A stretch of 64,000 bases of DNA from a virus: positions 47,828 to 111,827 of the IMG/VR virus record IMGVR_UViG_3300028392_000041. The stretch is one strand, 5' to 3'. A program made the position numbers and the translations under genes. This document shows, piece after piece, positions 4,432 to 36,325 of this stretch. The notes under the pieces are model-generated. The model saw only the letters and a list, made by a program, of their open reading frames with translations. It searched no databases and was not told the DNA's origin. Numbering within the stretch: position 1 is the first letter of the stretch; the number at the start of each line of letters is the position of its first letter.

Positions 4432-6012
4432 ATGACAATGCAAGAACTTCTTAAGTTGCAAGCTGCGATGACAGAGAAAAACACTCTGTCCATCAATTTA
4501 AACACGCATGCAGCAAACGATCTAAAGGTTGATGTTAAGAAGTTATCTGAAGCGCAGGTCAAAGCAGCAAATGATGAAGAATACAAAAAGAAACGCGAAG
4601 AGCAAGTAACTGATAGTCTAAAGCAATTAAATGCGACAATTAAAGAAGCAATCAAAAATGGTCTTGGCGCAGCAACTGCATCAAGAATTGGTGAAAATGA
4701 TGAATCTAGACAAAATGTCGCTGGAGCAAATAGTAAATTAAGAGAATTAATGCTTGGTGGTAAAAAAGGCGACGAACAAGTACAAAGTATAACTGGTATT
4801 CGTGGTGCAATTGATAAGTGGCTTGGTAAAAGAGAAGAAAAAGCAGCACTTAAACAAGAGAAAAAAGAATTCGTTCAAGGTGCTCTTGGTAATGATAAGC
4901 GAGCAATTGCGTTAAAGAATCTAAAAGGCGAAGATTATGCTAAGGCTGACGCTGAGAAGAGATTCGAAGAAATTAAAGCAAAAGAAAAAGAAATAGCAGA
5001 AGCACAAAGAAGAGTTGATGCTTCTAAAGCAGCTGGATATGCTCCAAAGAAAAAAGATCTAGAAGCAGTGGACAAGGGAACAAAAGAACTTGCCACTATG
5101 GATCCAAGAATGAAGTCAACTCTAACTAGAACTGCTCAAGAAGAAGCGCAAGAGTTTGATAAGAAAGCGAAATTAGATACAGTAAAAGCACAAGGTGACG
5201 AAGTAACAATCGAGCGTGGTATTGGCAAGTCATTAATAGACTCGCTTGATGTTCAGAAACAACAGCTCGCAGCATTACAACAACTTGTTGAACTTGGTGG
5301 TTCTGGTGGAGGAAGTGGTAGTGCTTCTTCTGTTGCTGCAGATTTAGCAGAAGCTGCTGTAGACAGTGCTGGTAATGGTAAAGGTGGCAAAGGTAAAATG
5401 CTTGGTAAGGCAGGTAAATTTTTGGCCAGAAATGCTGGTAAGATAGGTGCTATCGGAGCAGTTGGTATGGGTGCTTATGAAGCATATAGTGGGTATAATG
5501 ATGCTGAGGAAGCAGTTCAGCGTGGTGAAATAACCAAAGAAGAAGGACAGGTTAAAAAAGGTGAGGCAGTTGGAGGTGGTGTTGGTGGCGCAGGTGGTGC
5601 ACTTGCTGGTGCTGCTGCAGGTGCTGCAATTGGTTCTGTCGTTCCTGTGGTTGGAACTGCCATCGGTGGTTTAATCGGTGGTGCTCTAGGATATTATGGT
5701 GGTTCAAAAGTTGGTACTGCTGTTGGTGGCGCAGGTGTTAAAGCAGCACAAGGATTCCAAGCTGGAGATACAGTTGCTTATGATGAGATGGGTAATCCTA
5801 TTGGATCTGCTCCTACATCCTCGGAGAAAATAGAAACTGGTTCTAAAACAAATGAATCATTAAAAGTTAAAACAAGCTCTGCTCCAACTGTTGTTAATGC
5901 TCCAACAACAATTAATAATAACGGTAGTAAGGGTGGTTCAGTTGACATTAGATCACCACTCCGTAATCAAGAATCAAGCGTAAATAGTTACATTTCCAAT
6001 CGCTACGCATAA
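4432..6012 (+). CDS. Probable tail tape-measure / baseplate hub protein (gp29-like)
   Basis: 526 residues. The N-terminal half is highly charged and helical (Lys/Glu-rich coiled coil, residues 40-260). Then come a Gly/Ser linker, a central Gly/Ala-rich hydrophobic region (residues ~370-440, GAGGALAGAAAGAAIG-type) and a C-terminus ending in RNQESSVNSYISNRYA. Helical body, membrane-like glycine region and position right behind the gp26/gp26-51 chaperone pair fit a tape-measure protein; T4 gp29 is 590 aa. No sequence match to T4 gp29 can be shown by eye. Last gene of the plus-strand operon, followed at once by a terminator. Confidence 0.55.
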   Translation: MTMQELLKLQAAMTEKNTLSINLNTHAANDLKVDVKKLSEAQVKAANDEEYKKKREEQVTDSLKQLNATIKEAIKNGLGAATASRIGENDESRQNVAGANSKLRELMLGGKKGDEQVQSITGIRGAIDKWLGKREEKAALKQEKKEFVQGALGNDKRAIALKNLKGEDYAKADAEKRFEEIKAKEKEIAEAQRRVDASKAAGYAPKKKDLEAVDKGTKELATMDPRMKSTLTRTAQEEAQEFDKKAKLDTVKAQGDEVTIERGIGKSLIDSLDVQKQQLAALQQLVELGGSGGGSGSASSVAADLAEAAVDSAGNGKGGKGKMLGKAGKFLARNAGKIGAIGAVGMGAYEAYSGYNDAEEAVQRGEITKEEGQVKKGEAVGGGVGGAGGALAGAAAGAAIGSVVPVVGTAIGGLIGGALGYYGGSKVGTAVGGAGVKAAQGFQAGDTVAYDEMGNPIGSAPTSSEKIETGSKTNESLKVKTSSAPTVVNAPTTINNNGSKGGSVDIRSPLRNQESSVNSYISNRYA

Positions 6013-6038
6013 AAAAAGGGATCCGAAGATCCCTTTTT
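6013..6038. terminator. Bidirectional rho-independent terminator
   Basis: AAAAAGGGATC-CGAA-GATCCCTTTTT: an 11-bp stem with a tetraloop (UUCG when read on the minus strand). It closes the plus-strand late operon and the minus-strand pqqA/gp32 unit. Confidence 0.9.
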
Positions 6039-6041
6039 CAT

Positions 6042-6113
6042 TTACTTGTTCATTACATACATTGTAACTTCGAACCCAAATCTCATTTCTGTAGCAGCTG
6101 GTTTAGTCCACAT
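6042..6113 (-). CDS. pqqA: PqqA, precursor peptide of pyrroloquinoline quinone
   Basis: A 23-residue ORF too short for normal gene calling. It begins MWTKPAATEMRF and ends GFEVTMYVMNK. The MWxKP start, the R-x-G-F-E-V-T-x-Y block with the two cross-linked residues Glu15 and Tyr19 (spacing E-V-T-M-Y), and the length of 23-24 residues are all hallmarks of PqqA. GGAG lies 6 nt before the ATG. In bacteria PqqE with PqqD joins Glu and Tyr of this peptide, and PqqF/B/C finish PQQ, the cofactor of methanol and glucose dehydrogenases. No other pqq gene is visible here, so the peptide would feed host enzymes. It sits between gp32 and the terminator, so it is probably co-transcribed with gp32. Confidence 0.9.
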   Translation of the reverse strand: MWTKPAATEMRFGFEVTMYVMNK

Positions 6114-6130
6114 AACAATCTCCAAAAGAT

Positions 6131-6179
6131 TGACAGCAAATCCTGTCACATTTACTTATAATATAAGAGCAGGATTTGC
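6131..6179 (-). promoter_or_regulatory. pqqA leader with two mutually exclusive hairpins
   Basis: Between the gp32 stop and the pqqA RBS, GCAAATCCTG and CAGGATTTGC form a 10-bp stem (6136-6145 with 6170-6179). TGACAG-GATTTG-CTGTCA (6131-6148) forms a 6-bp hairpin using the same bases. The large loop contains CTTATA-T-TATAAG. Only one stem can form at a time, which would suit translational control, an RNA-binding site or gp32 autoregulation. Structure seen; function inferred. Confidence 0.45.
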
Positions 6180-6212
6180 CTAAGTGAATCTATTAAACTC
6201 TACTAATGAAAA

Positions 6213-7142
6213 TTATGCTTCGTCAGCGATTTTCTGGAAGTAAGACATGACATCTTCGTCATCGTCATTAATCTCAGGTGCTTTAGAAACTGTTACTGGC
6301 TTAGATGCTACAGTAGTGGCAGTTGACTTTGGAGCAACATAATCATCATCTTCAGACAAGGCTGCAGCTGACTTAATAGGTGTTCCTTCACCATCTAACA
6401 CATCTGACAGTTTCTTAGTCAGTTCTTCAAAAGATTTGAAGTTTTTACGATCTAAGAACTCAGACAACTTGTAAGATTTGTTTAGAATCTCAACCATCTT
6501 TTCTTCATCACCAGATGCCAACTCAGTTGGATCCATAAAAGTGGATTGGTCATAATTAGCATAACCATCTACCTTACGCATACGCAACTTAAAGTCTGCG
6601 CCTTCGAATGGATCGAAGACATTAACTGGCTTCTCATCTTCAAAAGTCGGACGAGCTTTATCCATGATTTTATCAAAGATTTTCTTACCAAACTTAAACA
6701 AGCGAACTTGTCCTTCATTCTCTGGATGCTTTGGATCAGAAACGATCAAAACATTACAGATGTAAGATAACTTACGCTTTTGTTTACGAGCAATTTCCTT
6801 GTTGGCATCAGAACCAGAATTCCACAATTTAGAATTCAATTCACCGACAGGATCTTTCTCACCAAGAGTGGTAAGAGAGTTCTCGATATACCACTTACCA
6901 GTTGGACCCTGGAAGGAGTGGTTAAAGATACGAACCCATGGGAGTTCGTCACCTTCTACGCGAGGTAGAAAACGCAGTGTGGCTGTACCATTACCAGCCT
7001 TATCGGCTTCTAGTTTCCACATTCTGTCGTCTTGGTAGGATTTTTTGCCACCGCCAGATTCGGGGTTAGCAATTTTTTCGAATTCGGAAGTGATTTTACC
7101 GAAATCTGTGTTACGCATTTTGCGAAGTGCTTGAATGTCCAT
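6213..7142 (-). CDS. 32: Single-stranded DNA-binding protein gp32
   Basis: 309 residues (T4 gp32: 301). It has a basic N-terminal cooperativity region (MDIQALRKMRNTDFGKI), an OB-fold core with aromatic and charged residues (LRFLPRVEGDELPWVRIFNH) and a very acidic C-terminal tail rich in Asp (residues ~285-309) that contacts replication partners. Unlike T4 gp32, the zinc ligands are not obvious. It coats ssDNA in replication and recombination. Upstream lie gp59, which loads helicase onto gp32-coated DNA, and gp33. Confidence 0.93.
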   Translation of the reverse strand: MDIQALRKMRNTDFGKITSEFEKIANPESGGGKKSYQDDRMWKLEADKAGNGTATLRFLPRVEGDELPWVRIFNHSFQGPTGKWYIENSLTTLGEKDPVGELNSKLWNSGSDANKEIARKQKRKLSYICNVLIVSDPKHPENEGQVRLFKFGKKIFDKIMDKARPTFEDEKPVNVFDPFEGADFKLRMRKVDGYANYDQSTFMDPTELASGDEEKMVEILNKSYKLSEFLDRKNFKSFEELTKKLSDVLDGEGTPIKSAAALSEDDDYVAPKSTATTVASKPVTVSKAPEINDDDEDVMSYFQKIADEA

Positions 7143-10849: not shown

Positions 10850-11293
10850 TTAGAATGAATATTTCAAGCCAGCAATAACAGTACTACCATCTAAAGAACT
10901 AACTTTAGATTGTCCTGCTTGATAACGATAATCAGCAGTGAGAGCAACTTGTTTGCTTAATGGATAAGAAACACCAGCACCAACTAATGCAGCATAGCCA
11001 TCAGTTGTATTCTTTTGATCCAAGTAAGCAACTCCACCTTTAACTGCGATGGTCGCTGCACCAACTGTTGCAACATCATACGAACCAACTAAAGTGTACT
11101 TGTTCATGTCAGTTCCAGTTTTGTATTGATCAAATCCAGCAGTGATGCCTACTTTATCAAACTTCTGTCCAACAGTAATACCTACACCAGTACGATCTGT
11201 ATTGGCAGTATCGCGACTTGCGTTGATACCTAGTTCAACTGCTTGAACACCCATAGATGCCAATAATGCTGCGATTAAAATAACTTTTTTCAT
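10850..11293 (-). CDS. Outer-membrane beta-barrel protein
   Basis: 147 residues; AAGGGAATTAA upstream of the ATG. Cleavable signal peptide (MKKVILIAALLASMGVQA), then alternating amphipathic strands (VGITVGQKFDKVGITAGFD, YTLVGSYDV, VALTADYRYQAG) and a terminal Phe (GLKYSF), the BAM recognition signal. About eight strands are expected, like OmpA/OmpX/OmpW barrels. An encoded outer-membrane protein could alter the surface, for example by masking receptors. Located just downstream of the tmRNA terminator. Confidence 0.8.
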   Translation of the reverse strand: MKKVILIAALLASMGVQAVELGINASRDTANTDRTGVGITVGQKFDKVGITAGFDQYKTGTDMNKYTLVGSYDVATVGAATIAVKGGVAYLDQKNTTDGYAALVGAGVSYPLSKQVALTADYRYQAGQSKVSSLDGSTVIAGLKYSF

Positions 11294-11316
11294 TTAATTC
11301 CCTTTTTAAAAAATAT

Positions 11317-11347
11317 GGTAACTTATTCTGTTACGAGGAAAGTTACC
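11317..11347 (-). terminator. Rho-independent terminator of the tmRNA gene
   Basis: On the minus strand GGTAACTT-N15-AAGTTACC (8-bp perfect stem) followed by ATATTTTTT. Confidence 0.85.
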
Positions 11348-11605
11348 GAAACCCTAGTCAGCGATTAAGCTGCCAATGCGAACTGTGAGTCGTTTGCGTT
11401 TACTTTTGTTTAGTTTTAACATCTACTCTGATGGGTTGTCCACTTCTATACTTGTTACCCTGTCGAAACCTAGTCACCCCCATCAGAAGCACACCCATTA
11501 GAGCCCATAAAATGGTTTCTTTCATCTAACACATGCACTTCTGGTGGAGGTGGGGAGAATCGAACTCCCGTCCAGAATACTTTTCTAGTTGCTTCACACA
11601 ACCAT
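11348..11605 (-). ncRNA. ssrA: Circularly permuted (two-piece) tmRNA, tag ANDSQFALAA
   Basis: Read on the minus strand, the acceptor piece comes first: T-arm GGGAGTTCGATTCTCCC and an encoded CCA ending at 11542. A ~60-nt intervening segment follows. The coding piece begins GGGGGTG at 11481. GGGGGUG pairs over all 7 positions (one G-U) with CACCTCC of the acceptor piece, so the tRNA-like end is rebuilt from two pieces. The tag frame at 11397-11365 reads GCA AAC GAC TCA CAG TTC GCA TTG GCA GCT TAA. A GGGT...ACCC pairing upstream fits pseudoknot PK1, and D-loop-like CTAGGTTTCGACAG replaces the usual GGATTCGACGGG. It rescues stalled ribosomes with SmpB (host). No phage smpB is visible. The exact 5' end is inferred from the promoter. 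Confidence 0.9.
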
Positions 11606-11611
11606 TCACCT

Positions 11612-11640
11612 ATTATACATTATATATTTATTATAGTCAA
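11612..11640 (-). promoter_or_regulatory. Sigma70-type promoter of the tmRNA
   Basis: TTGACT-N17-TATAAT on the complement, placing the transcript start near 11605, just before the acceptor piece. Confidence 0.8.
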
Positions 11641-11641
11641 A

Positions 11642-12292
11642 TTAAATACCTTTTAATTGCAAATATTCTTTGCGAAGATCTTTAAAATGTCCAATCCATT
11701 CATTCCTACGCTCTTCAAACACTTGTGGGGTATAATTATCAACCCCAACTATAATTACAAGTCTATTAACAGGAATTCCTGTCAACTCCTCAAACATAAC
11801 TGCATATGCAGAAGTCTGCATAAAGTAACCATGAATCCAATCACGATTTTTAAGTTTAGATGATGTTTTAAAATCAATGATAGATAACCTACCTTTATAC
11901 TCAGCAATACAGTCAACAGTTCCTGCAACTTGTAGATGGTGAGAATAAAGCGGACTCTCTAACGCATGTATATTATCTATATTATTTAATTCTGGGACGA
12001 GACTTTTAAATAGGTGCGAATCAAAGAAATCTGGTTGAGTAGGTTCTCCACGCAAATAGGATTCGCAGAGGGAGTGAATTTTGGTTCCTCTTGATGCTGC
12101 TCTGGTGGAGATTTTGTTTGCTTCTTCTTCTCCGACTCTTTTTCGCCAATCAAGGATTCCCTGTTTTGAGTGCAATCCAGTAACTGTGGTAACGGAGGGA
12201 TAGGATTTACCCGAAGGTGTGCGGTATAACCTGCCTTCGGGACTATCGATACGCTCCAGTTTCGCAAATTCATGATCAATAAATGTTTTCAT
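11642..12292 (-). CDS. PD-(D/E)XK exonuclease
   Basis: 216 residues. Residues 108-150 carry the nuclease core: a Glu in HALESPLYS, Asp in VAGTVDCIAEY, then IIDFKTSSK (D-x-K). The N-terminal PSVTTVTG and the RGTKIHSLCESYL helix match the phage and mitochondrial MGME1-like exonuclease family. Likely role in DNA recombination or degradation of host DNA. It overlaps the endolysin gene by 1 nt. Confidence 0.82.
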   Translation of the reverse strand: MKTFIDHEFAKLERIDSPEGRLYRTPSGKSYPSVTTVTGLHSKQGILDWRKRVGEEEANKISTRAASRGTKIHSLCESYLRGEPTQPDFFDSHLFKSLVPELNNIDNIHALESPLYSHHLQVAGTVDCIAEYKGRLSIIDFKTSSKLKNRDWIHGYFMQTSAYAVMFEELTGIPVNRLVIIVGVDNYTPQVFEERRNEWIGHFKDLRKEYLQLKGI

Positions 12293-18231: not shown

Positions 18232-18813
18232 TTATCCAAAATTAAATGCCATTGAAATTCTTTCATCATCTTCATCTTCAGTCAAATTTTGTTCAACATG
18301 ATGAGACAAGTAAGACGGAAATACAACAGTATTAATAACTGTCGGATCTATGTAGTAAGCCGACCAATTTCTATCATTTTGTACTCCTGGAAGCACAAAC
18401 TTAGAATTATCAGGTCGTTCAAACACAATATTTCCACTATTTTTTGGAACTTTAAAGTATACAGCTCCAGAGAAGAATGAAAATTGATGTGTATGACTTA
18501 CATTGTAATTATACCTCTTATTTACATTGAACCAAAAATTCAGCAAGTTCACTGGACGATCAATTCCATACACTTCATACAGTTTAACCATCTCATTACC
18601 AATTACATCAAAAATTGGGTTTACTACAGCCAGTTCACTACTTAGCGACTCAAACTTATAGGTCGGACTCTGCCATCCACCACGATTGCTAAATTCCAGA
18701 GATGGAGTTGAATCCTGTATTTCTTTGATTTTGGAAATTATTGGAGCAGGGTCAAATTCAATGTTCGTTGAAAATATAGATGTTCTAAAGGGAACATGTT
18801 CTTCAAATAACAT
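18232..18813 (-). CDS. 2-oxoglutarate/Fe(II) oxygenase-fold protein
   Basis: 193 residues of the phage 2OG-FeII_Oxy_5-like group: LNFWFNVNKRYNYNVSHTHQ with ligand His, SGAVYFKVPKNSG, then VVFPSYLSHHVEQN with the distal His and RISMAFNFG with the Arg. Substrate unknown. Confidence 0.8.
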   Translation of the reverse strand: MLFEEHVPFRTSIFSTNIEFDPAPIISKIKEIQDSTPSLEFSNRGGWQSPTYKFESLSSELAVVNPIFDVIGNEMVKLYEVYGIDRPVNLLNFWFNVNKRYNYNVSHTHQFSFFSGAVYFKVPKNSGNIVFERPDNSKFVLPGVQNDRNWSAYYIDPTVINTVVFPSYLSHHVEQNLTEDEDDERISMAFNFG

Positions 18814-19049
18814 TAGCGACCTCGACCAGTTGTCCTACGCACTTTTTTCTGTAGATTCTGAACAGCGGTCTTTACCAACTTCTTAGCCATCTTCACATTA
18901 CCAAATTTAACAGTCATTTCCTTCACTGCTTTCTTCTTTTCAGCTTTCAATGCCCTTGCTTCCTTTAGTCTAGTAAGAGAGTCCTTAAACTCACCCTCGA
19001 CTTCGCTGGATTTTTCTAAATCTGGATTTTTATCAGTTTCATTTGTCAT
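18813..19049 (-). CDS. Small highly charged protein
   Basis: 78 residues from MTNETDKN (AAGGA 8 nt upstream). Acidic N-terminus then a Lys/Arg-rich C-terminal half ending RRTTGRGR; coiled-coil and nucleic-acid binding are plausible. Shares 1 nt with the oxygenase start. Confidence 0.55.
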   Translation of the reverse strand: MTNETDKNPDLEKSSEVEGEFKDSLTRLKEARALKAEKKKAVKEMTVKFGNVKMAKKLVKTAVQNLQKKVRRTTGRGR

Positions 19050-19080
19050 TTCTTTTTCCTTTGTAGACACCCGACATCCT

Positions 19081-19110
19081 ATTATACCATAAATCGGTCT
19101 TGCAAGTCAA
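19081..19110 (-). promoter_or_regulatory. Sigma70-type promoter
   Basis: TTGACT-N18-TATAAT on the complement; spacer one base longer than most of the family. Confidence 0.65.
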
Positions 19111-19112
19111 GT

Positions 19113-19283
19113 TTATTTTTCCGACTTCTTGTAAGGGTTTTGTGGATCGCGAATTAGTACCACTGGAGTGACTTTTTCTACTAAAATGGTGTTTTCCGAG
19201 TTGATTTTCGTGTTGTAAGTCGTTGTACAGCCAAAAAGTACTACAAGAAGCATAAAAATCATAAAATATCGTATCAAAACCAC
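19113..19283 (-). CDS. Small lipoprotein (GTG start)
   Basis: 56 residues. A GTG at 19283 is preceded by GGAGG at 6-nt spacing, so it is preferred to internal ATGs. Signal sequence MVLIRYFMIFMLLVVLFGC ends in a lipobox; mature TTTYNTKINSENTILVEK. Overlaps the end of the next small gene. Confidence 0.6.
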   Translation of the reverse strand: MVLIRYFMIFMLLVVLFGCTTTYNTKINSENTILVEKVTPVVLIRDPQNPYKKSEK

Positions 19284-19387
19284 TTTCCACCTCCGTAAAC
19301 ACCGAATTTTCGCATGAAGCAAGTAAAAATGAGACCAAAAACGATCTCAAAAGTAAATAACCCCACTATGATATATAGAGCAATCAT
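19274..19387 (-). CDS. Tiny membrane protein
   Basis: 37 residues: one transmembrane helix (LYIIVGLFTFEIVFGLIFTC) and a basic tail ending KFGVYGGGKWF, a tail I have seen on tiny phage membrane proteins. Starts on the last base of the 19387 gene. Confidence 0.5.
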   Translation of the reverse strand: MIALYIIVGLFTFEIVFGLIFTCFMRKFGVYGGGKWF

Positions 19388-19650
19388 TACTCGCCACCAT
19401 AGTAGTCAATAATGAGGGATAGTGCTCTAATAAGTTTACCATTATTCACTACATCATCGGGATGTAACCAATAACCATCAGGATTCAGTTCATCCTTGGG
19501 ATTTTCAGCCCACGCATCTAATTCTGACTGTAGATAACGCTTGGCATCAATCAAATTTGCCCGAGTAAGTCCGTCTGCCACCTCATGAGGAATGACTAAA
19601 CCTCCAGAGGGATATAAGTGTTCGTTCTCAGTTTTAACTAATTTGTTCAT
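19387..19650 (-). CDS. Conserved hypothetical phage protein
   Basis: 87 residues with GLVIPHEVADGLTRANL and DGYWLHPDDVVNNGKLI. Acidic, helical. Start overlaps the upstream stop (ATGA). Unknown function. Confidence 0.6.
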   Translation of the reverse strand: MNKLVKTENEHLYPSGGLVIPHEVADGLTRANLIDAKRYLQSELDAWAENPKDELNPDGYWLHPDDVVNNGKLIRALSLIIDYYGGE

Positions 19651-19778
19651 GATAGTAAATCCACAATCGCTTTTATAGTGTTAATGTCAATATGCAGCTT
19701 AGATGCTATCTCAGCCACATCCCAATGCCGTTCCAGTAGTTCTTTCACAGCCATAACCAAATCATGTCGTGTATACAT
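19647..19778 (-). CDS. Small helix-turn-helix-like protein
   Basis: 43 residues: WDVAEIASKLHIDINTIKAI has the spacing of a helix-turn-helix. Promoter directly upstream at 19797. Could be a small regulator; unproven. Confidence 0.5.
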   Translation of the reverse strand: MYTRHDLVMAVKELLERHWDVAEIASKLHIDINTIKAIVDLLS

Positions 19779-19796
19779 AGTGTAGTCCTTTTAGTA

Positions 19797-21507: not shown

Positions 21508-21606
21508 TCACAGCCCCATCAAGCGCAAGCGCAAGAGCTGTCCCAGAGTTGGTTTCAAACCCAACTTTTTGCGGAGCAATTGCCCCAGTGTTTTCTTTTG
21601 TTTCAT
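21508..21606 (-). CDS. Tiny basic protein with an internal repeat
   Basis: 32 residues with a strong RBS (GGGAGGTAGT-ATG). It contains TLGQLLRKKLGLKP followed by TLGQLLRLRLMG, a tandem imperfect repeat forming an amphipathic basic helix. Unknown function. Confidence 0.5.
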   Translation of the reverse strand: MKQKKTLGQLLRKKLGLKPTLGQLLRLRLMGL

Positions 21607-21625
21607 ACTACCTCCCTTGTTCTTA

Positions 21626-22552
21626 TTAAGCAGTCAACATGTAAGTAGCAAGATCTTTGTAGTCTTTGTTAGACGCACGGATTTTGCAGACAGCGATAAG
21701 GGTACGGAGGGAAATTTCCTTACACTCATCTTTGATTTCCTTAATCAAAGCAAGGGCATCTGCCTTAACAGAAGCATCGTACTCAGGCATGAATTCAGGG
21801 CTGGTAGCGATAAAGGACATGCGGTCTAACTTTTGGTCAGCAGTCATAGTCAGGTCAATCATCATTGAACGACTACGAATCGCTTGGTCGATGCCGTCCT
21901 GAGTCATGTTAGAAATAAAAATCACACGACCTGTGAATTCAAACGAACGAGGTAAGTCCTCATCACGCATGTCAGCATTCCAAGAGATAATACGCTTGCC
22001 GTAGGAATCTAGCGCACCCTTAAGAATATTCAAAGCAACAGGATCTTTGAGCACAGAGTCACAGTCGTCAAACACGATAATGCTGTTGTTGTTTTCAAAC
22101 AGCGAACGATACAAACCCTTAGCAGTTGAATAACCCTTGATTTGGGTGAAGCACTTGCGAGTGTTAATCACTGAACCGACTTGAAAGTCAGCGAGATTAG
22201 AGATGTCGGTGTAGCCAGCATCGTTAAGAGTTTTGGTTACGGTAAAAGTTTTACCGAGACCACCTTCACCTGTGATAACAGCGGATGGCTGTACGCCAGA
22301 CGCAACCATTTTCACAAGTTTCTCAACGAACTCAAAGCGAGTATTGATGCCAAACTTTTCGTCACGAGCAGTTTGTACTTCAACATCGGCAGCAACGATC
22401 TGGTCGTAGGTCAAATCCATACCTGTTTCCTGTTTATATCTCCACTCAATGTGGGATTTCTTAGTAGTTTTGAAGGGTTTAGCAGAACCGATTTGGCACA
22501 CATACTTACCAGAGGTTTTGTCGAATTTCACAGAGGTACGGATAGTAGTCAT
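21626..22552 (-). CDS. AAA+ ATPase
   Basis: 308 residues from MTTIRTSVKFDK (AAGGA 6 nt upstream). Walker A GEGGLGKTFTV near residue 96, Walker B SIIVFDDCD, sensor-1 RVIFISNMT and arginine region AIRSRSMMIDL. Family common in T4-like phages; resembles MoxR-like or clamp-loader-type remodellers. Single-gene unit with its own promoter. Confidence 0.82.
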   Translation of the reverse strand: MTTIRTSVKFDKTSGKYVCQIGSAKPFKTTKKSHIEWRYKQETGMDLTYDQIVAADVEVQTARDEKFGINTRFEFVEKLVKMVASGVQPSAVITGEGGLGKTFTVTKTLNDAGYTDISNLADFQVGSVINTRKCFTQIKGYSTAKGLYRSLFENNNSIIVFDDCDSVLKDPVALNILKGALDSYGKRIISWNADMRDEDLPRSFEFTGRVIFISNMTQDGIDQAIRSRSMMIDLTMTADQKLDRMSFIATSPEFMPEYDASVKADALALIKEIKDECKEISLRTLIAVCKIRASNKDYKDLATYMLTA

Positions 22553-22582
22553 TTGGTTTCCTTTTTTATTCATCATAGATCA

Positions 22583-22611
22583 ATTATACACGAGGTACGA
22601 ATTAAAGTAAA
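22583..22611 (-). promoter_or_regulatory. Sigma70-type promoter
   Basis: TTTACTTTAATTC...TATAAT, 17-nt spacer; preceded on the transcript side by hairpin 22627. Confidence 0.8.
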
Positions 22612-22616
22612 GCACT

Positions 22617-22800
22617 TTATTCCATACCCCTACGACCTGTAGGGTTATTCATGGCTGTCACACCAGAGTATGCAAGGGCGATAGCCAGACCAGCGATCAC
22701 TACCAAGGGTAGCAACTGTGCGTCTGTGGCATTGTCCAAACCACCTGCAACACCCATTAACACAAACAAACCAACGAAAGTACGGATAGATCCACGCATT
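22617..22800 (-). CDS. Small membrane protein
   Basis: 60 residues from MRGSIRTFVGLF. Two hydrophobic helices (residues ~6-22 and ~30-47). Its last codons (NNPTGRRGME) lie within the repeated palindrome at 22627. Confidence 0.55.
22627..22647. repeat. REP-like palindrome copy a
   Basis: ACCCCTAC-GACCT-GTAGGGTT; one of seven CCCTAC-N(3-6)-GTAGGG hairpins in the window. This one overlaps the gene's 3' end. Confidence 0.65.
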
Positions 22801-22830
22801 TTAAAACCCTTTTTTATCATCAATACAGTA

Positions 22831-22859
22831 AGTATACCTGTTTTCTGAATTAATGTAAA
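22831..22859 (-). promoter_or_regulatory. Sigma70-type promoter
   Basis: TTTACATTAATTC...TATACT, 17-nt spacer. Confidence 0.78.
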
Positions 22860-22872
22860 GCATTATTTTCAT

Positions 22873-22893
22873 ACCCCTACGACTGGTAGGGTT
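22873..22893. repeat. REP-like palindrome copy b
   Basis: CCCTAC-GACTG-GTAGGG, just after the stop of the 22892 gene and 15 nt before the next promoter; probable terminator. Confidence 0.65.
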
Positions 22894-23182
22894 ATTCCAT
22901 ACCCAGATTTGAGAACGAATCTTCGTTGCCTTCACGAGCATCGTACCTGCCGTTGCCAAGGTCAAGGGCATAGGACAACTCACGAATGTCCTCACATGTG
23001 TCAACGACCTCAAGGGACTCAACATCAACGACCTCACAATAGCAACCATCGATCACTACCGTATACTTGTCCTGATATTCAGCGATCAAGGGTACTGGGC
23101 TGGATACGCCAGCGAAGCCCATGCGGTCAAATTTTGTCATAACAGAAAATTCCAAGCCAGCCAAAAAGTCACGAGTAATCAT
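22892..23182 (-). CDS. Hypothetical protein
   Basis: 96 residues, acidic. SSPVPLIAEYQDKYTVVIDG and CEVVDVESLEVVDTCEDI form a beta-rich middle. No family recognised. Confidence 0.55.
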   Translation of the reverse strand: MITRDFLAGLEFSVMTKFDRMGFAGVSSPVPLIAEYQDKYTVVIDGCYCEVVDVESLEVVDTCEDIRELSYALDLGNGRYDAREGNEDSFSNLGME

Positions 23183-23193
23183 ATATTTTCCTA

Positions 23194-23400
23194 TTAAGCG
23201 ATTGTTGTTTTGCGTGGGAAGCCAGTAGCGAAACCACTGGTACCTGTTGATGCTGTGCGAGTAACTTTGCCACGCATAACCTGTTTGCGAGGGCGAATCT
23301 GGCGATCGCTGACTTCAACGACACCACCACGACGCAGGAATTCAGCCATCTGTACTTCAGACTCGGCACGGAGTTGGGATTTGGTTTTTGCTATAATCAT
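23194..23400 (-). CDS. Small basic hypothetical protein
   Basis: 68 residues from MIIAKTKSQLRAESEVQ (AAGGA upstream). Arg/Lys-rich, VSDRQIRPRKQVMRGKVTR; possible nucleic-acid binder. Confidence 0.5.
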   Translation of the reverse strand: MIIAKTKSQLRAESEVQMAEFLRRGGVVEVSDRQIRPRKQVMRGKVTRTASTGTSGFATGFPRKTTIA

Positions 23401-23429
23401 TTTTCTTCCTTTTTTCAAGTTTACAAGTA

Positions 23430-23458
23430 ATTATACATCCAAAGCGAATTAAAGTAAA
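23430..23458 (-). promoter_or_regulatory. Sigma70-type promoter
   Basis: TTTACTTTAATTC...TATAAT, 17-nt spacer. Confidence 0.8.
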
Positions 23459-23471
23459 GGACTATTTTAGT

Positions 23472-23492
23472 ACCCCTACCACTGGTAGGGTT
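23472..23492. repeat. REP-like palindrome copy c
   Basis: CCCTACC-ACT-GGTAGGG, directly after the stop of the GP88-like gene. Confidence 0.65.
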
Positions 23493-24231
23493 ATGCTGCC
23501 ATCATCATTACAGTGGGATATTTCACAAACCCACTGGTGTCCTTCTTGGCTTTGCCTTTGGCATACAACCCAACGATCACTCCCTTTGGGTCAAGGAAAC
23601 GCAGGTCAGACTCATCGCCATTAAATACTGTGCGACCATTATAGGTTTCAGGCATGGGCTGTGTTTTCTTCATACCAAAAACAGTAGCGACATTATAACC
23701 CTGCGCGATCGCTCCCAAAACATCAGCATCGTTGCCATCGGCAGCAGAGAAAGTCAGGTGGTAGTTATCGATGTGAGCAACTTTACGACCGAGGATTTTT
23801 GTGTAGTCATAAAATTGAACCTGCGGAAACAGTTGAAAAATATTTTTGCCTGTACCCATGATGCTATACTTTTCAAAAGACAGGTCACTGGTGCCGTTGA
23901 GACGAAACACTGGTGTCAAACCGAGTCGGGCTGACTGTTTGATTGCCAACTCAATGTCGTTGATGAGTTGGTGGAAAAATTCATCACGATTGCTGAAAAA
24001 CAACTGAGTCTTACGGATCCGTGCTTTCTGAATCGTGTTTGTCGTTTCGCCTTTCTTGAACATACCACCACGACCAGCTGTGTTCAAACAAGCAGAGGTG
24101 CAACCAGCAGTGCGCTTGGGGCAGGTTTCGTGACCTGACAGATTCGCAGGGGCGAGGTGAAGGATGTAGGTATTATAACCCTGCTTCATGCCTTTGAGGA
24201 TTTTTGGGTTTCCAGTGCTCAATAATTTCAT
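23491..24231 (-). CDS. GP88-like phage protein
   Basis: 246 residues. Starts LLSTGNPKILKG, then YILHLAPANLSGHETCPKRT, GCTSACLNTAGRGGM with three or four conserved Cys, and PVFRLNGTSDLSFEKY. This Cys-rich family occurs in phages and plasmids of many hosts. The Cys cluster may bind metal or an Fe-S cluster; no activity is known to me. Confidence 0.7.
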   Translation of the reverse strand: MKLLSTGNPKILKGMKQGYNTYILHLAPANLSGHETCPKRTAGCTSACLNTAGRGGMFKKGETTNTIQKARIRKTQLFFSNRDEFFHQLINDIELAIKQSARLGLTPVFRLNGTSDLSFEKYSIMGTGKNIFQLFPQVQFYDYTKILGRKVAHIDNYHLTFSAADGNDADVLGAIAQGYNVATVFGMKKTQPMPETYNGRTVFNGDESDLRFLDPKGVIVGLYAKGKAKKDTSGFVKYPTVMMMAA

Positions 24232-24248
24232 AATATATCCCTCTTCAA

Positions 24249-24614
24249 TTAAACAGTTGCGGTATCAAGATAACCATAAGGCAAACCAAACAAGAAGCAA
24301 GCGTAGTCACGATCGCCATTTGCATCAGCAGAGTCCATGAGCCAAGCGATTACTCGCTCACGATTGGTGCCTGTATGCATCAGGTTTAATACTTTGTCCT
24401 CAAACTTCGCGATCGCTACTTTCTCGTCTGCGATTCGCTGAGTTTCTTCACGCATGATGACTTCAGCCAAGAACTCAAATTCCTTCTCAAAGTCAGCCAG
24501 CGTCCACATGCTGGTGTCAATGCCACGAGGACGACTGCCGTAGGCATCTTTGTACATATCCCAGTACTGACATTGGGCTTGCTCAAGAGGGGACATTTCG
24601 TTCCAAGATTGCAT
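24249..24614 (-). CDS. Conserved hypothetical protein
   Basis: 121 residues from MQSWNEMSPLEQAQCQYWD (SD spacing favours this ATG over the one 6 nt upstream). Helical and acidic. No domain recognised. Confidence 0.6.
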   Translation of the reverse strand: MQSWNEMSPLEQAQCQYWDMYKDAYGSRPRGIDTSMWTLADFEKEFEFLAEVIMREETQRIADEKVAIAKFEDKVLNLMHTGTNRERVIAWLMDSADANGDRDYACFLFGLPYGYLDTATV

Positions 24615-24644
24615 TTTCATTTCCTTTTCTGATTCAATAGAGTA

Positions 24645-24673
24645 ATTATACAAGTATTTTGAATTAAAGTAAA
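24645..24673 (-). promoter_or_regulatory. Sigma70-type promoter
   Basis: TTTACTTTAATTC...TATAAT, 17-nt spacer. Confidence 0.8.
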
Positions 24674-24677
24674 GGGA

Positions 24678-24700
24678 AAACCCTTCACTCAGTAGGGTTA
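24678..24700. repeat. REP-like palindrome copy d (diverged)
   Basis: CCCTTC-ACTCA-GTAGGG with one mismatch, right after the 24698 gene's stop. Confidence 0.55.
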
Positions 24701-24859
24701 TTCAGTAGGAACGCCAGCCAAGCCAAAAATCTCAAGAACCCCACCAGTAGGGTAGTCAGAGGGCACAGTCACGGTAGCCAGATTATCATAAGCCAAACCC
24801 CAATTAGCAAAGGGACCAGCCACAACCATTTTATTAGCAGTATCAATAATATAAAACAT
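24698..24859 (-). CDS. Small hypothetical protein
   Basis: 53 residues; AGGAG 7 nt upstream. MFYIIDTANKMVVAGPF, then VTVPSDYPTGGVLEIFG. Single-gene unit between a promoter and hairpin d. Confidence 0.55.
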   Translation of the reverse strand: MFYIIDTANKMVVAGPFANWGLAYDNLATVTVPSDYPTGGVLEIFGLAGVPTE

Positions 24860-24883
24860 TCATTTCTCCTATTCAATAATACA

Positions 24884-24912
24884 ATTATACCTCGACTGTG
24901 AATTAATGTAAA
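24884..24912 (-). promoter_or_regulatory. Sigma70-type promoter
   Basis: TTTACATTAATTC...TATAAT, 17-nt spacer. Confidence 0.8.
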
Positions 24913-24953
24913 GGTCTTTTTATCGCTTGTAAGTCGTTGATTTCAAATGAGAA

Positions 24954-24975
24954 AAACCCACTGAAAAGTGGGTTT
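24954..24975 (-). terminator. Rho-independent terminator
   Basis: On the minus strand AAACCCACT-TTTC-AGTGGGTTT followed by TTTCTC; ends the 26.0-25.0 kb operon. Confidence 0.85.
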
Positions 24976-30806: not shown

Positions 30807-32000
30807 CTATTTAAAATAATTATATCCGAAGTTTGTATCTAATGTTACCAGATGTCTAGGCGACCAACCCCATGTTGGTTCAAGTGCCCAAAGTTTGTTT
30901 CTTGTATATCTCTGCATAACAGGGCGAATCTCTAAAAATTCTTTACACTTAAACAATTTCTCTGACTCTGATTTAATAACTCTCTGCCAAAATGGTGTAT
31001 CATAAACAGAACCACCATGGTAATGATATGATATCATGTTAGCAATTCCCTCTGCTGTTCTAACAAAATCTGCGTTGGCTTTCTCTTTATTGGTGTTACC
31101 CAATATGTAGTCGAATGCCAATCGATTGATTCTGTCGTATAGGAATCCAGAGTTTGCAAACAATGGTTCCATAAACGCAGCAGAGTTGCCATTCTTAATT
31201 ATTCTTTTGCCAATAAACTCTTTTTTCCAGTAGAAGTTAAAAGTATACTCTATTTTCTGTAGTTCGTCAAGTGGAACATCAATTTCTTTTGCAAAATTTT
31301 CTCTGGCTTGTTCAACTGTTGTATCATTGTCATTAAACAAGTAACCATAACTGGTTCTGCTCAGAAGAGGAATAGTAAACATCCAGCCATCCTTGGTTGC
31401 TGTATGTCCAGTCCATGTTGGTTCATATTTTGTTGCGATAACAGTTTTCTTGTTGTGCACCAAAGCATGGTTCACTGGCGCATCAGTTATAACAGTATAT
31501 CCTTCATAAGATTTCGGAAATCCAGTACAATCAATAACATACTCAAATTGATGTTCAACTCCATTGATTTTCATAGTAACATAATCATCACTATCAACCA
31601 TGTCTGTTACAGTTCCAGTAATTTCTTTAAATTTTTGACCCCAAAGTTTAGGGAATCGCTCAAACGCAAATTCTTTTAATTTAAATGTATTAAGGTGTAT
31701 TGCTGCTGTTCCATTTAATAGTGGATTCTTAAACTCATTACCACGCCAGTTCTTATAGTGTGTTCCATATTTTAATGTTCCATCTAACAATTCTGAATCG
31801 CGAATTAAATCAAAATCTAAACCCCATTCTATCGCATTCGTAAATGTTGGGTTGGTGCTTTCACCAATCCCGACGATGGGAATATTATTATCGTAGATTG
31901 AAGTAATTTCCCAGTCTTCGTTTAACCAAGAAAGAAAATGACATAGTGCCTGAATACCTGCGGTGCCAATCCCAATTACTGCCAGTTTTCTGTTATACAT
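30807..32000 (-). CDS. Flavin-dependent halogenase (tryptophan-halogenase family)
   Basis: 397 residues. N-terminal FAD site GIGTAGIQAL; family motif VGIGESTNPTFTNAIEWGLD; LKYGTHYKNW carries the Lys expected to bind HOX; WMFTIPLLSRTSYGYLF replaces the classical WxWxIP; C-terminal FMEPLFANSGFLYDRI. Shorter than bacterial tryptophan halogenases (~500-540) and close in size and context to the cyanophage halogenase VirX1, which is known to iodinate varied substrates. Needs a flavin reductase, presumably host. Flanked on both sides by 2OG oxygenases. Confidence 0.87.
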   Translation of the reverse strand: MYNRKLAVIGIGTAGIQALCHFLSWLNEDWEITSIYDNNIPIVGIGESTNPTFTNAIEWGLDFDLIRDSELLDGTLKYGTHYKNWRGNEFKNPLLNGTAAIHLNTFKLKEFAFERFPKLWGQKFKEITGTVTDMVDSDDYVTMKINGVEHQFEYVIDCTGFPKSYEGYTVITDAPVNHALVHNKKTVIATKYEPTWTGHTATKDGWMFTIPLLSRTSYGYLFNDNDTTVEQARENFAKEIDVPLDELQKIEYTFNFYWKKEFIGKRIIKNGNSAAFMEPLFANSGFLYDRINRLAFDYILGNTNKEKANADFVRTAEGIANMISYHYHGGSVYDTPFWQRVIKSESEKLFKCKEFLEIRPVMQRYTRNKLWALEPTWGWSPRHLVTLDTNFGYNYFK

Positions 32001-33164: not shown

Positions 33165-33238
33165 TGGTTGCGGAGGGCGGAATCGAACCACCAACTGAAG
33201 CATATGAAACTTCTGAGATACCGTTTCTCTACTCCGCG
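33165..33238 (-). tRNA. tRNA-Met(CAT), initiator-like
   Basis: Anticodon loop TTCATAT. The acceptor CGCGGAG/CTCCGCA leaves position 1 (C) unpaired with A72, the hallmark of bacterial initiator tRNA, and matches E. coli tRNA-fMet at both ends. The anticodon stem GAAGT/GCTTC lacks the three G-C pairs of true initiators. CCA encoded. Confidence 0.85.
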
Positions 33239-33243
33239 ATTGT

Positions 33244-33516
33244 TTAATATAATTTTTCAGGTAATTGTTGAGAACGAATCTGCTTGCGCCATCTTGCCTT
33301 TGCTCTACCCTTTGCCAACTTTCTTTGAATAGATGGTTTAAGATATTCCTGACGATCGCGAAGTTCTTGCAATAGACCATTCGCTTCAATCTTACGCTTG
33401 AACAGACGCAGTGCTTGTTCAAATCTACCATCTTGAACTTCTACCTTACTGCCATCGTAGCGTTTCTCTCGATGTTTACCTCTGCCGTATTCTTTTTGCC
33501 TTTGCGGTATTGTCAA
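33244..33516 (-). CDS. rpsU: Ribosomal protein bS21 homologue
   Basis: 90 residues. KVEVQDGRFEQALRLFKRKI, EANGLLQELRDRQEYLKPS and a basic C-terminal helix AKGRAKARWRKQ reproduce bS21. Host bS21 (~70 aa) binds near the anti-Shine-Dalgarno of 16S rRNA and affects start selection; a phage copy could bias ribosomes to phage mRNAs. About 20 extra residues at the N-terminus. It sits between two tRNA genes. Confidence 0.88.
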   Translation of the reverse strand: MTIPQRQKEYGRGKHREKRYDGSKVEVQDGRFEQALRLFKRKIEANGLLQELRDRQEYLKPSIQRKLAKGRAKARWRKQIRSQQLPEKLY

Positions 33517-33534
33517 ACTATTCTCCTAAAATTT

Positions 33535-33610
33535 TGGTGCCCCTCGACAGATTCGAACTGCCGACCTTCGCATTACTAATGCGCTGCTCTACCAACTGAG
33601 CCAGAGGGGC
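33535..33610 (-). tRNA. tRNA-Thr(AGT)
   Basis: Cloverleaf with GCCCCTC/GAGGGGC acceptor, CCA encoded, anticodon loop TTAGTAA. The rest of the arm equals that of bacterial tRNA-Thr. Confidence 0.9.
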
Positions 33611-33618
33611 GAGTAAAG

Positions 33619-33626
33619 TATTTATA
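33619..33626 (-). promoter_or_regulatory. Late-promoter-like TATAAATA
   Basis: Exact T4 late consensus on the complement, 8 nt before the tRNA-Thr 5' end. It could drive late synthesis of bS21 and the last two tRNAs. Confidence 0.4.
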
Positions 33627-34251
33627 CGATTCTCATTGTGTTTATTGAACACTTAGTAAGCGCATAATTAAAACTTAATGAAATCCTACACTCATCTGTA
33701 TCTGTTGTAAATCTATCAGTACAATGTTCTAACCAACTGGGAAACAGAAGCATCAAAGCGAACTCTGGTTTGTATTTCCATGCCCTGTATGAGATTGGGG
33801 ATTCTTTTATAAAATTTCCATGCTGCATCATTTTTGCTGGTCTTGGATCTATAAAAGATATATCGCCTATATCTTTGTCAGCTGGAACATTTAAGTAAAC
33901 AACACCTGATAAAAATGAATTTGGGTGTTGATGTGTTCTGTGTCCATTTCCAGTATTTCCAATTTGAGAATTACTCCACATACAAGAAAGACTCAAAGAA
34001 TTTTGTTCTAGTCCCAATGCTTCTGTTGAGAATGATTGAACTTCATTATCAATGTGTTTAACTAATTCTTTAAATTGTGATAGTGTGTTTAGATTATCTT
34101 TGGTGCTTCCTGATAAACTTTTAGAAAGAGATTCTTTATCAAGAAGTTTTTGAACTTCTTGTTTTGCAGTTGAACATACACTATGATCTAGATTCGAGAT
34201 CCCAATAGGTGTAGCAAATAAATTATCAACTCTTCTATGCATAATATTCAA
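33622..34251 (-). CDS. 2-oxoglutarate/Fe(II) oxygenase-fold protein
   Basis: 209 residues, 2OG-FeII_Oxy_5-like. GNGHRTHQHPNSFLSGVVYL with ligand His residues, LLFPSWLEHCTDRF with distal His, ECRISLSFNYAL with Arg. Embedded in the tRNA cluster. Confidence 0.8.
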   Translation of the reverse strand: MNIMHRRVDNLFATPIGISNLDHSVCSTAKQEVQKLLDKESLSKSLSGSTKDNLNTLSQFKELVKHIDNEVQSFSTEALGLEQNSLSLSCMWSNSQIGNTGNGHRTHQHPNSFLSGVVYLNVPADKDIGDISFIDPRPAKMMQHGNFIKESPISYRAWKYKPEFALMLLFPSWLEHCTDRFTTDTDECRISLSFNYALTKCSINTMRIV

Positions 34252-34252
34252 T

Positions 34253-34397
34253 TAGTTTAGTGCTATCGTGCCGATTTGCCAAAAATGTAGCTAACACTGG
34301 CGAGCGAGTGGCAGTTATATCAGACAGTGTCAGTCGCACCCTAACTGTCGAGTAGTCATAGCGTCCTATGACGATTACCTTGATAACACTAAACTAA
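34253..34397 (-). ncRNA. Structured RNA directly 3' of tRNA-Gly(TCC)
   Basis: Starting right after the tRNA-Gly CCA, TTAGTTTAGTGTTATC pairs with GATAGCACTAAACTAA at the far end (16 bp, one G-U). Inside are GTCATAG-GACG-CTATGAC (7 bp), GACAGT...ACTGTC (6 bp) and smaller stems. No ORF. Strand inferred from the tRNA operon. Confidence 0.6.
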
Positions 34398-34471
34398 TGG
34401 AGCGGGATATCAGAATCGAACTGATGACGAAAGATTGGAAATCTCTAGTTTTGCCATTAAACTAATCCCGC
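34398..34471 (-). tRNA. tRNA-Gly(TCC)
   Basis: GCGGGAT/ATCCCGC acceptor, anticodon loop TTTCCAA, CCA encoded. Confidence 0.92.
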
Positions 34472-34714
34472 AAATGCTTCCTGTCCGTCGTGGTAATTAT
34501 AGTACATCAGGATTTAGTTGGTTGTCTCTCATATCCATCACGCATACCCTCCACCCACTCGCCACGGACAGAACTCTCGTGTTGCCAACGCTGGTTAGGT
34601 CGACCCATGATTTTACTCATGCCCTATTCAAAGGGAGAACCATCCTACTGATAGCCAATCAGTTTCTCTCATGCGGATCACATTAGCAGTGGTTAGCTGC
34701 GAGCCCATATAGTA
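34472..34714 (-). other. Transcribed, structured gap with a doubtful 37-codon ORF
   Basis: Downstream of promoter 34715. It contains hairpins CTGAT-TGGCT-ATCAG and CATGA-GTAAAA-TCATG and a long-range CTGTCCGT/CGGACAG pairing. An ORF at 34620-34507 (start MSKIMGRPNQRWQHE, end ERQPTKS) has no convincing RBS. Either a small gene with structured leader or another RNA. Confidence 0.4.
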
Positions 34715-34743
34715 ATTATACCCGACTTATACTAAAATGTCAA
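34715..34743 (-). promoter_or_regulatory. Sigma70-type promoter inside the tRNA cluster
   Basis: TTGACA-N17-TATAAT on the complement. Confidence 0.8.
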
Positions 34744-34759
34744 ATCGAATGCAATTATT

Positions 34760-34835
34760 TGGAGTAGGTGACAGGAATCGAACCTGCATTATTCAGATTT
34801 GCAATCTGCTGCCTAGCCATTCAGCGCACACCTAC
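34760..34835 (-). tRNA. tRNA-Cys(GCA)
   Basis: GTAGGTG/CACCTAC acceptor, anticodon loop TTGCAAA. The 5' end overlaps the HNH gene stop by 4 nt. Confidence 0.92.
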
Positions 34836-35386
34836 ATTAACCTTACTCTGCTGTGTTTAGGAACACCCGATAACAAGTAATCCATTTGATCAGCAAGAAT
34901 TTGTCTGTTTTCTAAAATCATTCTTTCGTAGTGGTTTGGTTCGTACGGAACATATAAAAGTTCCATATTTGCTTTCTCTAGTGACTTGCTACCTTTTTTG
35001 GCATTGCACTTCAAACAAGCAGTAACCACATTCATCCAGATATTCAGACCACCCTTTGAAACAGGATGAATATGATCTCTAGACAAATGACCAGAACCAT
35101 GTACATCACCGCAGTAAGCGCACATGTGTCTGTCTCTACCGAACAATGTTTTGTTTGTTAGAACAACTTTACCAATTCTTTCGATAGAGGTATTACCTTT
35201 TACGGCAATGATTGATTTAGTTTCTAGTACTGACTGTGTCCCATCGTTACGGTAGCCACCACGGTATGTCGCGATAGTTTCACCAAGCGACCAAACAACT
35301 TGGTCTTTGGCGTGGTAACAAATTGCATCATCAAAATTTACCCATGCTCTTGGTAAACCTGATGAGTCCAGTGCTAGAACATTCAT
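34832..35386 (-). CDS. HNH endonuclease
   Basis: 184 residues. Zinc-type HNH: CAYCG, LSRDHIHPVSKGG (the catalytic DH), NIWMNVVTACLKCN with the final Cys pair. The N-terminal domain ALDSSGLPRAWVNFDDAICY is shared with cyanobacterial and phage HNH proteins. Possibly a free-standing mobile endonuclease in the tRNA cluster. Confidence 0.85.
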   Translation of the reverse strand: MNVLALDSSGLPRAWVNFDDAICYHAKDQVVWSLGETIATYRGGYRNDGTQSVLETKSIIAVKGNTSIERIGKVVLTNKTLFGRDRHMCAYCGDVHGSGHLSRDHIHPVSKGGLNIWMNVVTACLKCNAKKGSKSLEKANMELLYVPYEPNHYERMILENRQILADQMDYLLSGVPKHSRVRLM

Positions 35387-35407
35387 ATCATTCCCTTTCT
35401 TGTTCTA

Positions 35408-35415
35408 CTATTTAG
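35408..35415 (-). promoter_or_regulatory. Late-promoter-like element CTAAATAG
   Basis: 22 nt upstream of the HNH start. Confidence 0.4.
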
Positions 35416-35417
35416 AT

Positions 35418-35494
35418 TGGTGTCCCCCAAGGGATTCGAACCCTCATCTTATCAATTATGAGTTGACAGCATTGACCAGTTATGCTAAAGGAAC
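35418..35494 (-). tRNA. tRNA with CAT anticodon (Met elongator or Ile2)
   Basis: Anticodon loop CTCATAA, which both elongator tRNA-Met and lysidine-modified tRNA-Ile2 use. Acceptor GTTCCTT/GGGGGAC has several G-U pairs. Confidence 0.85.
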
Positions 35495-35496
35495 AT

Positions 35497-35573
35497 TGGT
35501 GCGGATACCGAGACTCGAACTCGGAGAACTCAGATTTTAAGTCTGATATGTATACCAATTCCATCATATCCGC
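35497..35573 (-). tRNA. tRNA-Leu(TAA)
   Basis: GCGGATA/TATCCGC acceptor, anticodon loop CTTAAAA, CCA encoded. Confidence 0.9.
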
Positions 35574-35578
35574 AAACT

Positions 35579-35653
35579 TGGTGCCCCGAGAGGGAATTGA
35601 ACCCCCATAATGACTTTAGAAGAATCATGTCCTATCCATTGAACGATCGGGGC
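35579..35653 (-). tRNA. tRNA-Arg(TCT)
   Basis: GCCCCGA/TCGGGGC acceptor, anticodon loop CTTCTAA. Confidence 0.9.
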
Positions 35654-35660
35654 AATACAC

Positions 35661-35750
35661 TGGTGGAAGATCAGGGAGTCGAACCCTGTGAGCGTATTAC
35701 TACACTCTACGGATTAGCAATCCGCTGCATTACCATCCTGCCCATCTTCC
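35661..35750 (-). tRNA. tRNA-Ser(GCT)
   Basis: 90 nt with long variable arm, anticodon loop TTGCTAA. Confidence 0.92.
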
Positions 35751-35755
35751 TAACT

Positions 35756-35829
35756 TGGCATCCCAGCAGGGACTTGAACCCCGACTAATAGTTTTGGAGA
35801 CTATCGTGCTGCCATTACACTACTGAGAT
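35756..35829 (-). tRNA. tRNA-Trp(CCA)
   Basis: ATCTCAG/CTGGGAT acceptor, anticodon loop CTCCAAA, G73. Confidence 0.9.
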
Positions 35830-35834
35830 ATATT

Positions 35835-35908
35835 TGGTGCCCCATGACAGAATCGAACTGCCGTAACCTGATTACAAAACAGGTGTAATACCATTATACT
35901 AATAGGGC
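35835..35908 (-). tRNA. tRNA-Thr(TGT)
   Basis: Anticodon loop TTTGTAA, CCA encoded. Confidence 0.88.
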
Positions 35909-35916
35909 AAAAATTT

Positions 35917-35991
35917 TGGTGGAGGATGGGAGGATCGAACTCCCACTTCATGCTTGCAAAGCACATGTGCTCCCATTATCACTAATCCCCC
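35917..35991 (-). tRNA. tRNA-Ala(TGC)
   Basis: GGGGGAT/ATCCTCC acceptor, anticodon loop TTTGCAA. The G3-U70 position is present as G-T in the third pair, the alanine identity element. Confidence 0.9.
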
Positions 35992-35997
35992 AAAACA

Positions 35998-36322: not shown

Positions 36323-36325
36323 ATT

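Follow-up and report, generated by a model that had tools for sequence, protein, structure and literature searches.

PqqA is the peptide precursor of the cofactor PQQ, and one PqqA is consumed for each PQQ made. Members of the Methylophilaceae carry 3-12 copies of pqqA, with the other pqq genes usually single (PMC4109929), and in Methylovorus MP688 the supply of PqqA is cited as the rate-determining factor (PMC11317620). Viral PqqA has also been described: Coutinho et al. 2020 (PMC7678222) found it, alongside a methanol dehydrogenase, in a T4-like methylophage from Lake Baikal, and viral pqqA, pqqE, and pqqD are reported from reservoir sediments (PMC13188868); the passages found of the Melnitz and MEP401/402 papers make no mention of a phage pqqA. 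A phage PqqA had been reported before the gene described here (PMC7678222). Viral PqqA itself is already known; what goes beyond it is the breadth of its distribution, its cassette, a promoter element shared with the host, and a covarying RNA.

Set against the closest described systems, the pqqA of this T4-like virus compares as follows: i) like other members of PF08042 and TIGR02107 it has the expected length, the W-x-x-P start, the GFEVTMY core, and the E-x3-Y spacing, and identical peptides occur in Methylophilaceae, but it is phage-encoded and solitary, viral loci lack pqqB, and its use as an enzyme substrate is predicted; ii) like the Baikal methylophages VP_266 and VP_139 (PMC7678222) the virus is T4-like, encodes PqqA, and has a predicted Methylophilaceae host, but a viral methanol dehydrogenase is present there and in neither this record nor 49 of 50 other pqqA-bearing viral records, and the promoter element, cassette insertion, and breadth do not appear in the passages found of the Baikal paper; iii) like the multiple orphan pqqA genes described in Methylophilaceae (PMC4109929; Methylovorus MP688) it stands alone behind the same upstream element at the same spacing, but those genes are chromosomal, and phages mostly have only the promoter-proximal copy of the element, the window having two degenerate copies; and iv) like the auxiliary metabolic genes psbA and phoH it is a gene of host type whose presumed role is to sustain a limiting step during infection, but its product is not an enzyme; it is the substrate that a cofactor pathway uses up.

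A PqqA gene inside a viral genome

The window analyzed here covers 64,000 nucleotides of a linear IMG/VR virus record 111,827 bp long, and its features are collected in the table below. The original prediction placed a 23-codon PqqA ORF between gp32 and a terminator without stating the strand; the ORF exists at that position but is encoded by the minus strand, reading from 6113 to 6042, and not by the plus strand. The accompanying details were recovered as described: the GGAG ribosome binding site 6 nt from the ATG (6123-6120), the flanking gp32 (phrog_224) and terminator, and the Glu/Tyr spacing, in the form of E15 and Y19, with three residues between them, which are the presumed cross-linking pair. 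In profile searches the peptide reached 42.4 bits against a curated cut-off of 21.1 for PF08042 (Pfam PqqA) and 40.4 bits against 20 for TIGR02107, about twice the threshold in both cases, and with two curated profiles and identity to Methylophilaceae PqqA in agreement, the predicted product of the window ORF is a genuine PqqA. It is the single PqqA match in the whole record; PHROGs contained no match to it at E up to 1.

Table. Features of the pqqA cassette, and loci with the upstream RNA
Feature	Position in window	Strand	Basis
pqqA, 23-codon ORF, MWTKPAATEMRFGFEVTMYVMNK followed by stop	6042..6113	-	PF08042 and TIGR02107 profiles, purifying selection in relatives
Shine-Dalgarno GGAG, 6 nt 5' of pqqA ATG	6120..6123	-	sequence
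pqqA cis-element copy 1, GCATAATTTTCATTAG, degenerate, overlaps gp32 stop codon	6203..6218	-	11.3 bits, viral PWM
pqqA cis-element copy 2, TAATAGATTCACTTAG, degenerate	6180..6195	-	7.2 bits, viral PWM
-10 region TATATTATAAG	6155..6165	-	-35/-10 pairing, element spacing
10-bp perfect inverted repeat GCAAATCCTG...CAGGATTTGC around -10	6136..6179	-	also in sibling cassette L290
gp32 single-stranded DNA-binding protein, gene before pqqA	6213..7142	-	phrog_224 E=6.7e-106
bidirectional intrinsic terminator, cassette end	6013..6038	.	11-bp stem and T-run
RNA-bearing host loci: L145, L142, L223, L378, L382-L396			
RNA-bearing phage loci: L033, L035, L036, L040, L043, L064, L067, L068, L069, L083, L115, L118, L257, L263, L266			

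Relatives were collected by two pattern scans of IMG/VR. The first, using a back-translated GFEVTMY pattern, matched at least 120 contigs, and 120 of 120 among the matches listed contain a PqqA ORF, so the window ORF is not a chance occurrence. The second used a pattern over the N-terminal half only, leaving the core residues free, and found at least 121 ORFs including the window's; E15 and Y19 are kept in 121 of 121 (among the matches listed). Besides the window's contig, at least 157 IMG/VR contigs among the matches listed carry pqqA, a Shine-Dalgarno-like motif is present in all 157 viral upstream regions checked, and the presumed cross-linking pair is invariant across 137 distinct viral DNA sequences. 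Viral pqqA relatives are under strong purifying selection, with dN/dS of 0.02-0.09 (0.087 overall for the 137 distinct sequences, and 0.022 for codons 13-23, unconstrained by the second pattern, in 83 distinct sequences). Identical 23-residue peptides are common in Methylophilaceae chromosomes among the matches listed.

A tblastn search of 50,697 annotated phage records returned 12 matches: nine Methylophilales phage isolates (Venkman, P19250A, MEP301, MEP401, MEP402, and four Melnitz strains), a single environmental podovirus, and a bacterial pqqA-E cluster present in two records. By name and classification, with no tree behind the grouping, the isolates form five types: Kyanoviridae Melnitz, Zobellviridae MEP401/402, Venkman, P19250A, and MEP301; MEP431-434 are taxonomy entries outside the 12 matches and may be missing from the collection or may lack pqqA. 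The original prediction that so short a gene would be missed in phage annotations proved right for every isolate record examined, and in the Melnitz and environmental podovirus annotations a hypothetical ORF on the wrong strand overlaps pqqA. The two Acinetobacter "phage" records were rejected as misfiled, the pqqA-E cluster in them being bacterial; CAKLQF020000010.1 (108210, "Acinetobacter phage MD-2021a") carries ppk and pqqABCDE and is apparently bacterial DNA. Nor was a pqqB motif found in any of 158 viral pqqA loci (among the matches listed), and we reject the reading of the viral contigs as bacterial DNA on that ground.

The neighborhood of the gene varies. A search for pqqA next to gp32 in related viral contigs, proposed with the original prediction, showed the two genes adjoining in only 1 of 80 gp32 relatives, and we reject pqqA as a constant gp32 neighbor. 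The immediate neighbors of pqqA form 111 combinations over 158 viral loci (among the matches listed). Absence of the ORF from close relatives, named in the original prediction as evidence against it, is thus partly what we see, but because the ORF is missing beside gp32 in 79 of 80 relatives, including one (L289) whose gp32 is 98% identical and whose gp32 stop is followed directly by the terminator, we attribute the difference to gain or loss of a cassette and not to an artefact. The insert is about 170 bp in the window and in a 91% relative (97.7% identity over 175 bp between them); in the window it comprises two pqqA upstream elements, the -10, the ribosome binding site, and the ORF; the terminator at its end is shared with a converging gene at 4432-6012. 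The window pqqA is set inside the virus genome, with gp32 on one side and a phage gene on the other, and since it is present at the gp32 site in only one of the 80 relatives it is dispensable.

A promoter element common to phage and host pqqA

Host and phage upstream regions, taken as separate sets for motif discovery, yielded an element common to both, TMATGAWWWTCMTKAG. The host 16-mer TcATGAattTcaTtAG exceeds 8 bits in 104 of 112 host regions and the closely similar phage 16-mer, TaATGaTTTTc.ttAt, in 101 of 123 phage regions (both among the matches listed); scores in shuffled sets were more than 10-fold lower. As a guard against over-fitting, the matrix from each set was used to search the other: the viral matrix finds the element in 103 of 113 host loci, a 172-fold enrichment over the rest of the same contigs, and the host matrix finds it in 49 of 154 viral loci (85-fold). 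From the upstream copy in hosts it is 23 bp to a second copy and most often 44 bp to the -10 hexamer; the single phage copy is followed by the -10 at 21 bp. The Melnitz copy is strong (19-21 bits), and a -10 follows at a similar distance.

Both copies in the window are degenerate, but they are 23 bp apart, the commonest host spacing. A -35-like TTCACT (6183-6188) lies inside copy 2 and pairs with TATATT (6160-6165) across a 17-nt spacer, and TATAAG/ATAAGT lies about 21 bp after copy 2, which is the host and phage spacing. The composite of two sites and a -10 ranks first among 225,476 positions (both strands, whole record), and none of 3000 first-order shuffled upstreams reaches its score. It scores 12.7 with the host-site matrix against 4.9 for the next position; with a leave-one-out viral matrix the margin is small (14.3 against 14.1). 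We conclude that the window pqqA has a host-type promoter architecture. No report of a promoter element of this kind for PQQ control appeared in the freely available literature searched.

A covarying RNA in OM43-type hosts and phages

Outside the window, a two-helix RNA of 58 positions is common to 13 phage and 6 host pqqA upstream regions, and comprises helix 1 (6 bp), an internal loop (CUCAA / UGAUCUG), helix 2 (6 bp), and a variable hairpin. Changes on both sides occur in 8 of 12 pairs, giving 43 such cells against 12.6 in shuffles, although the cells are not independent because the host rows are close kin; the covariation score is 0.546 against 0.271 in shuffles, and none of 500 shuffles scores as high. 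A covariance model added two phage copies, L068 and L263, both upstream of pqqA, bringing the RNA to about 15 phage contigs besides the marine (OM43-type) hosts; it lies roughly 70-95 nt before pqqA. It is found in 23 of 187 Methylophilaceae genomes, all of 0.7-1.4 Mb and with exactly one copy each, and each of the 23 copies is followed after about 80-95 nt by two tandem pqqA genes; a search of 300 genomes from the order gave only two matches, both already in the 187-genome set. No Rfam family matched the RNA at gathering score, and no report of it appeared in the freely available literature searched.

As a working hypothesis, this structure suggests a candidate riboswitch or other cis-regulator. 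The element (R1) has no match in the window or in the other pieces of the virus record (G000), and no known RNA family reaches gathering score at the window pqqA site or at the other pqqA loci, a scan of 5900-6400 giving sub-threshold matches only. The record of one RNA-bearing phage locus, L043 (72,356 bp), has a 628-residue PQQ alcohol dehydrogenase frame as well as pqqA and the upstream RNA.

Host, proposed role, and alternatives

The host of this T4-like phage is most likely a member of the Methylophilaceae, to which the peptide, the promoter element, the pqqA-bearing isolates, and a betaproteobacterial-type tmRNA in the window all point. PqqA was found in 185 of 187 Methylophilaceae genomes, mostly in several copies and up to 12. 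The tmRNA (11274-11660, minus strand) scores with betaproteobacterial and permuted Rfam models and has the predicted tag ANDSQFALAA; the Melnitz tmRNA is two-piece with alphaproteobacterial kin, and that of the window may differ in origin. The window also holds 27 tRNA genes (33165-37777, minus strand) and, by eye, adjoining IscA-like and IscU-like iron-sulphur assembly ORFs (51304-51997, minus strand); two FAD-dependent halogenase-like ORFs, likewise by eye, lie among oxygenase-like ORFs at 30807-32000 (minus strand) and at 18666-19787 of G000.

In such a host, the peptide would be made during infection from its own host-recognized promoter, by read-through from gp32, or both; host PqqD and PqqE would cross-link E15 and Y19; and host PqqB, PqqC, and peptidases would complete PQQ. 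Because one PqqA is used per PQQ and PqqA is reported to be rate-determining in Methylovorus, an extra copy could sustain PQQ, and with it methanol dehydrogenase and the energy supply, as host gene expression falls. Methanol dehydrogenase is the enzyme that would be concerned in a methylotroph; the glucose dehydrogenase also named in the original prediction drops out. We consider it likely that the window carries a genuine PqqA on a T4-like phage, in a promoter-bearing cassette, that supplies substrate to host PqqE, PqqD, PqqB, and PqqC. Such a role fits the multiple host copies of pqqA, the reported PqqA rate limitation, purifying selection, and the host-type promoter; the degeneracy of both window element copies, the small leave-one-out margin, the dispensability of the gene at this site, and the absence from the record of a recognizable PQQ alcohol dehydrogenase count against it, and the host assignment is indirect. 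The increase of PQQ in infected cells is something we infer, and that newly made PQQ would help within a single infection is an assumption, given that the existing dehydrogenase already holds PQQ.

Enzymatic partners for the peptide were sought in the virus. No PQQ alcohol dehydrogenase or methanol dehydrogenase was recognizable in this record, which is a fragment, and methanol dehydrogenase was rejected as a pqqA partner here; it was found in 1 of 50 other pqqA-bearing viral records tested. A phage PqqE was likewise rejected: a radical-SAM protein encoded at 21521-22969 of G000 falls below the equivalog cut-offs listed and is nearest to other peptide maturases, best those of PapB/geopeptide type, with PqqE outside the best 25 families. 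This radical-SAM/SPASM peptide-maturase-like protein, a Cys-rich 139-residue protein (CNNGNC...CNNCSNC), and a B12-type radical-SAM protein are encoded together (21521-24974 of G000; L123) amid structural-looking genes, possibly as a phage peptide-modification system.

Other readings of the same gene must be weighed. The peptide could be a decoy or inhibitor that occupies host PqqD and PqqE, with less PQQ or a diverted radical-SAM enzyme as the outcome, and binding too would need a conserved sequence; a decoy need not have both cross-linking residues, however, whereas every viral copy retains E15 and Y19, the phage peptide often matches the host's substrate exactly, and the hosts themselves multiply pqqA, which makes a decoy very unlikely. 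No better placed is a function of PqqA other than PQQ supply that the phage exploits, such as lanthanide handling: PMC11317620 offers lanthanide uptake as a suggestion for orphan PqqA copies, but the precursor role of PqqA is established and the cross-linking pair is conserved. Passenger host DNA, brought in by recombination and of no benefit to the phage, would account for presence or absence among close relatives and for the resemblance of the cassette to host upstream DNA; against this, dN/dS is 0.02-0.09 across viral copies, the gene recurs in five isolate methylophage types and 111 gene contexts (among the matches listed), and deletion pressure on the genomes would erode a 69-bp ORF that was neutral, and we find such carriage highly improbable. 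A chance ORF or a misfiled bacterial sequence, for which one could cite only the 23-codon length, has a negligible probability given the 42-bit profile score, the gp32, tail, and terminase-like genes in the window, and the absence of pqqB from 158 viral pqqA loci (among the matches listed), the single bacterial case found having stood out by its pqqABCDE cluster.

More tentatively, and at somewhat short of an even chance, we suggest that a portable pqqA occurs broadly in methylotroph phages and is plugged into the host PQQ circuit through a host promoter element and a host activator, with further control in marine OM43-type hosts and their phages by the structured RNA, possibly a riboswitch for PQQ or a related signal.

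A 69-bp gene missed by annotation is common to all five isolate types matched, at differing genome positions. In lakes and coastal seas methanol oxidation carries a substantial one-carbon flux, which phages would influence if they prop up PQQ supply. Should the portable pqqA reading hold true, phages would commonly exert control over methanol oxidation through cofactor supply. The promoter element and covarying RNA offer direct handles on PQQ control in Methylophilaceae.
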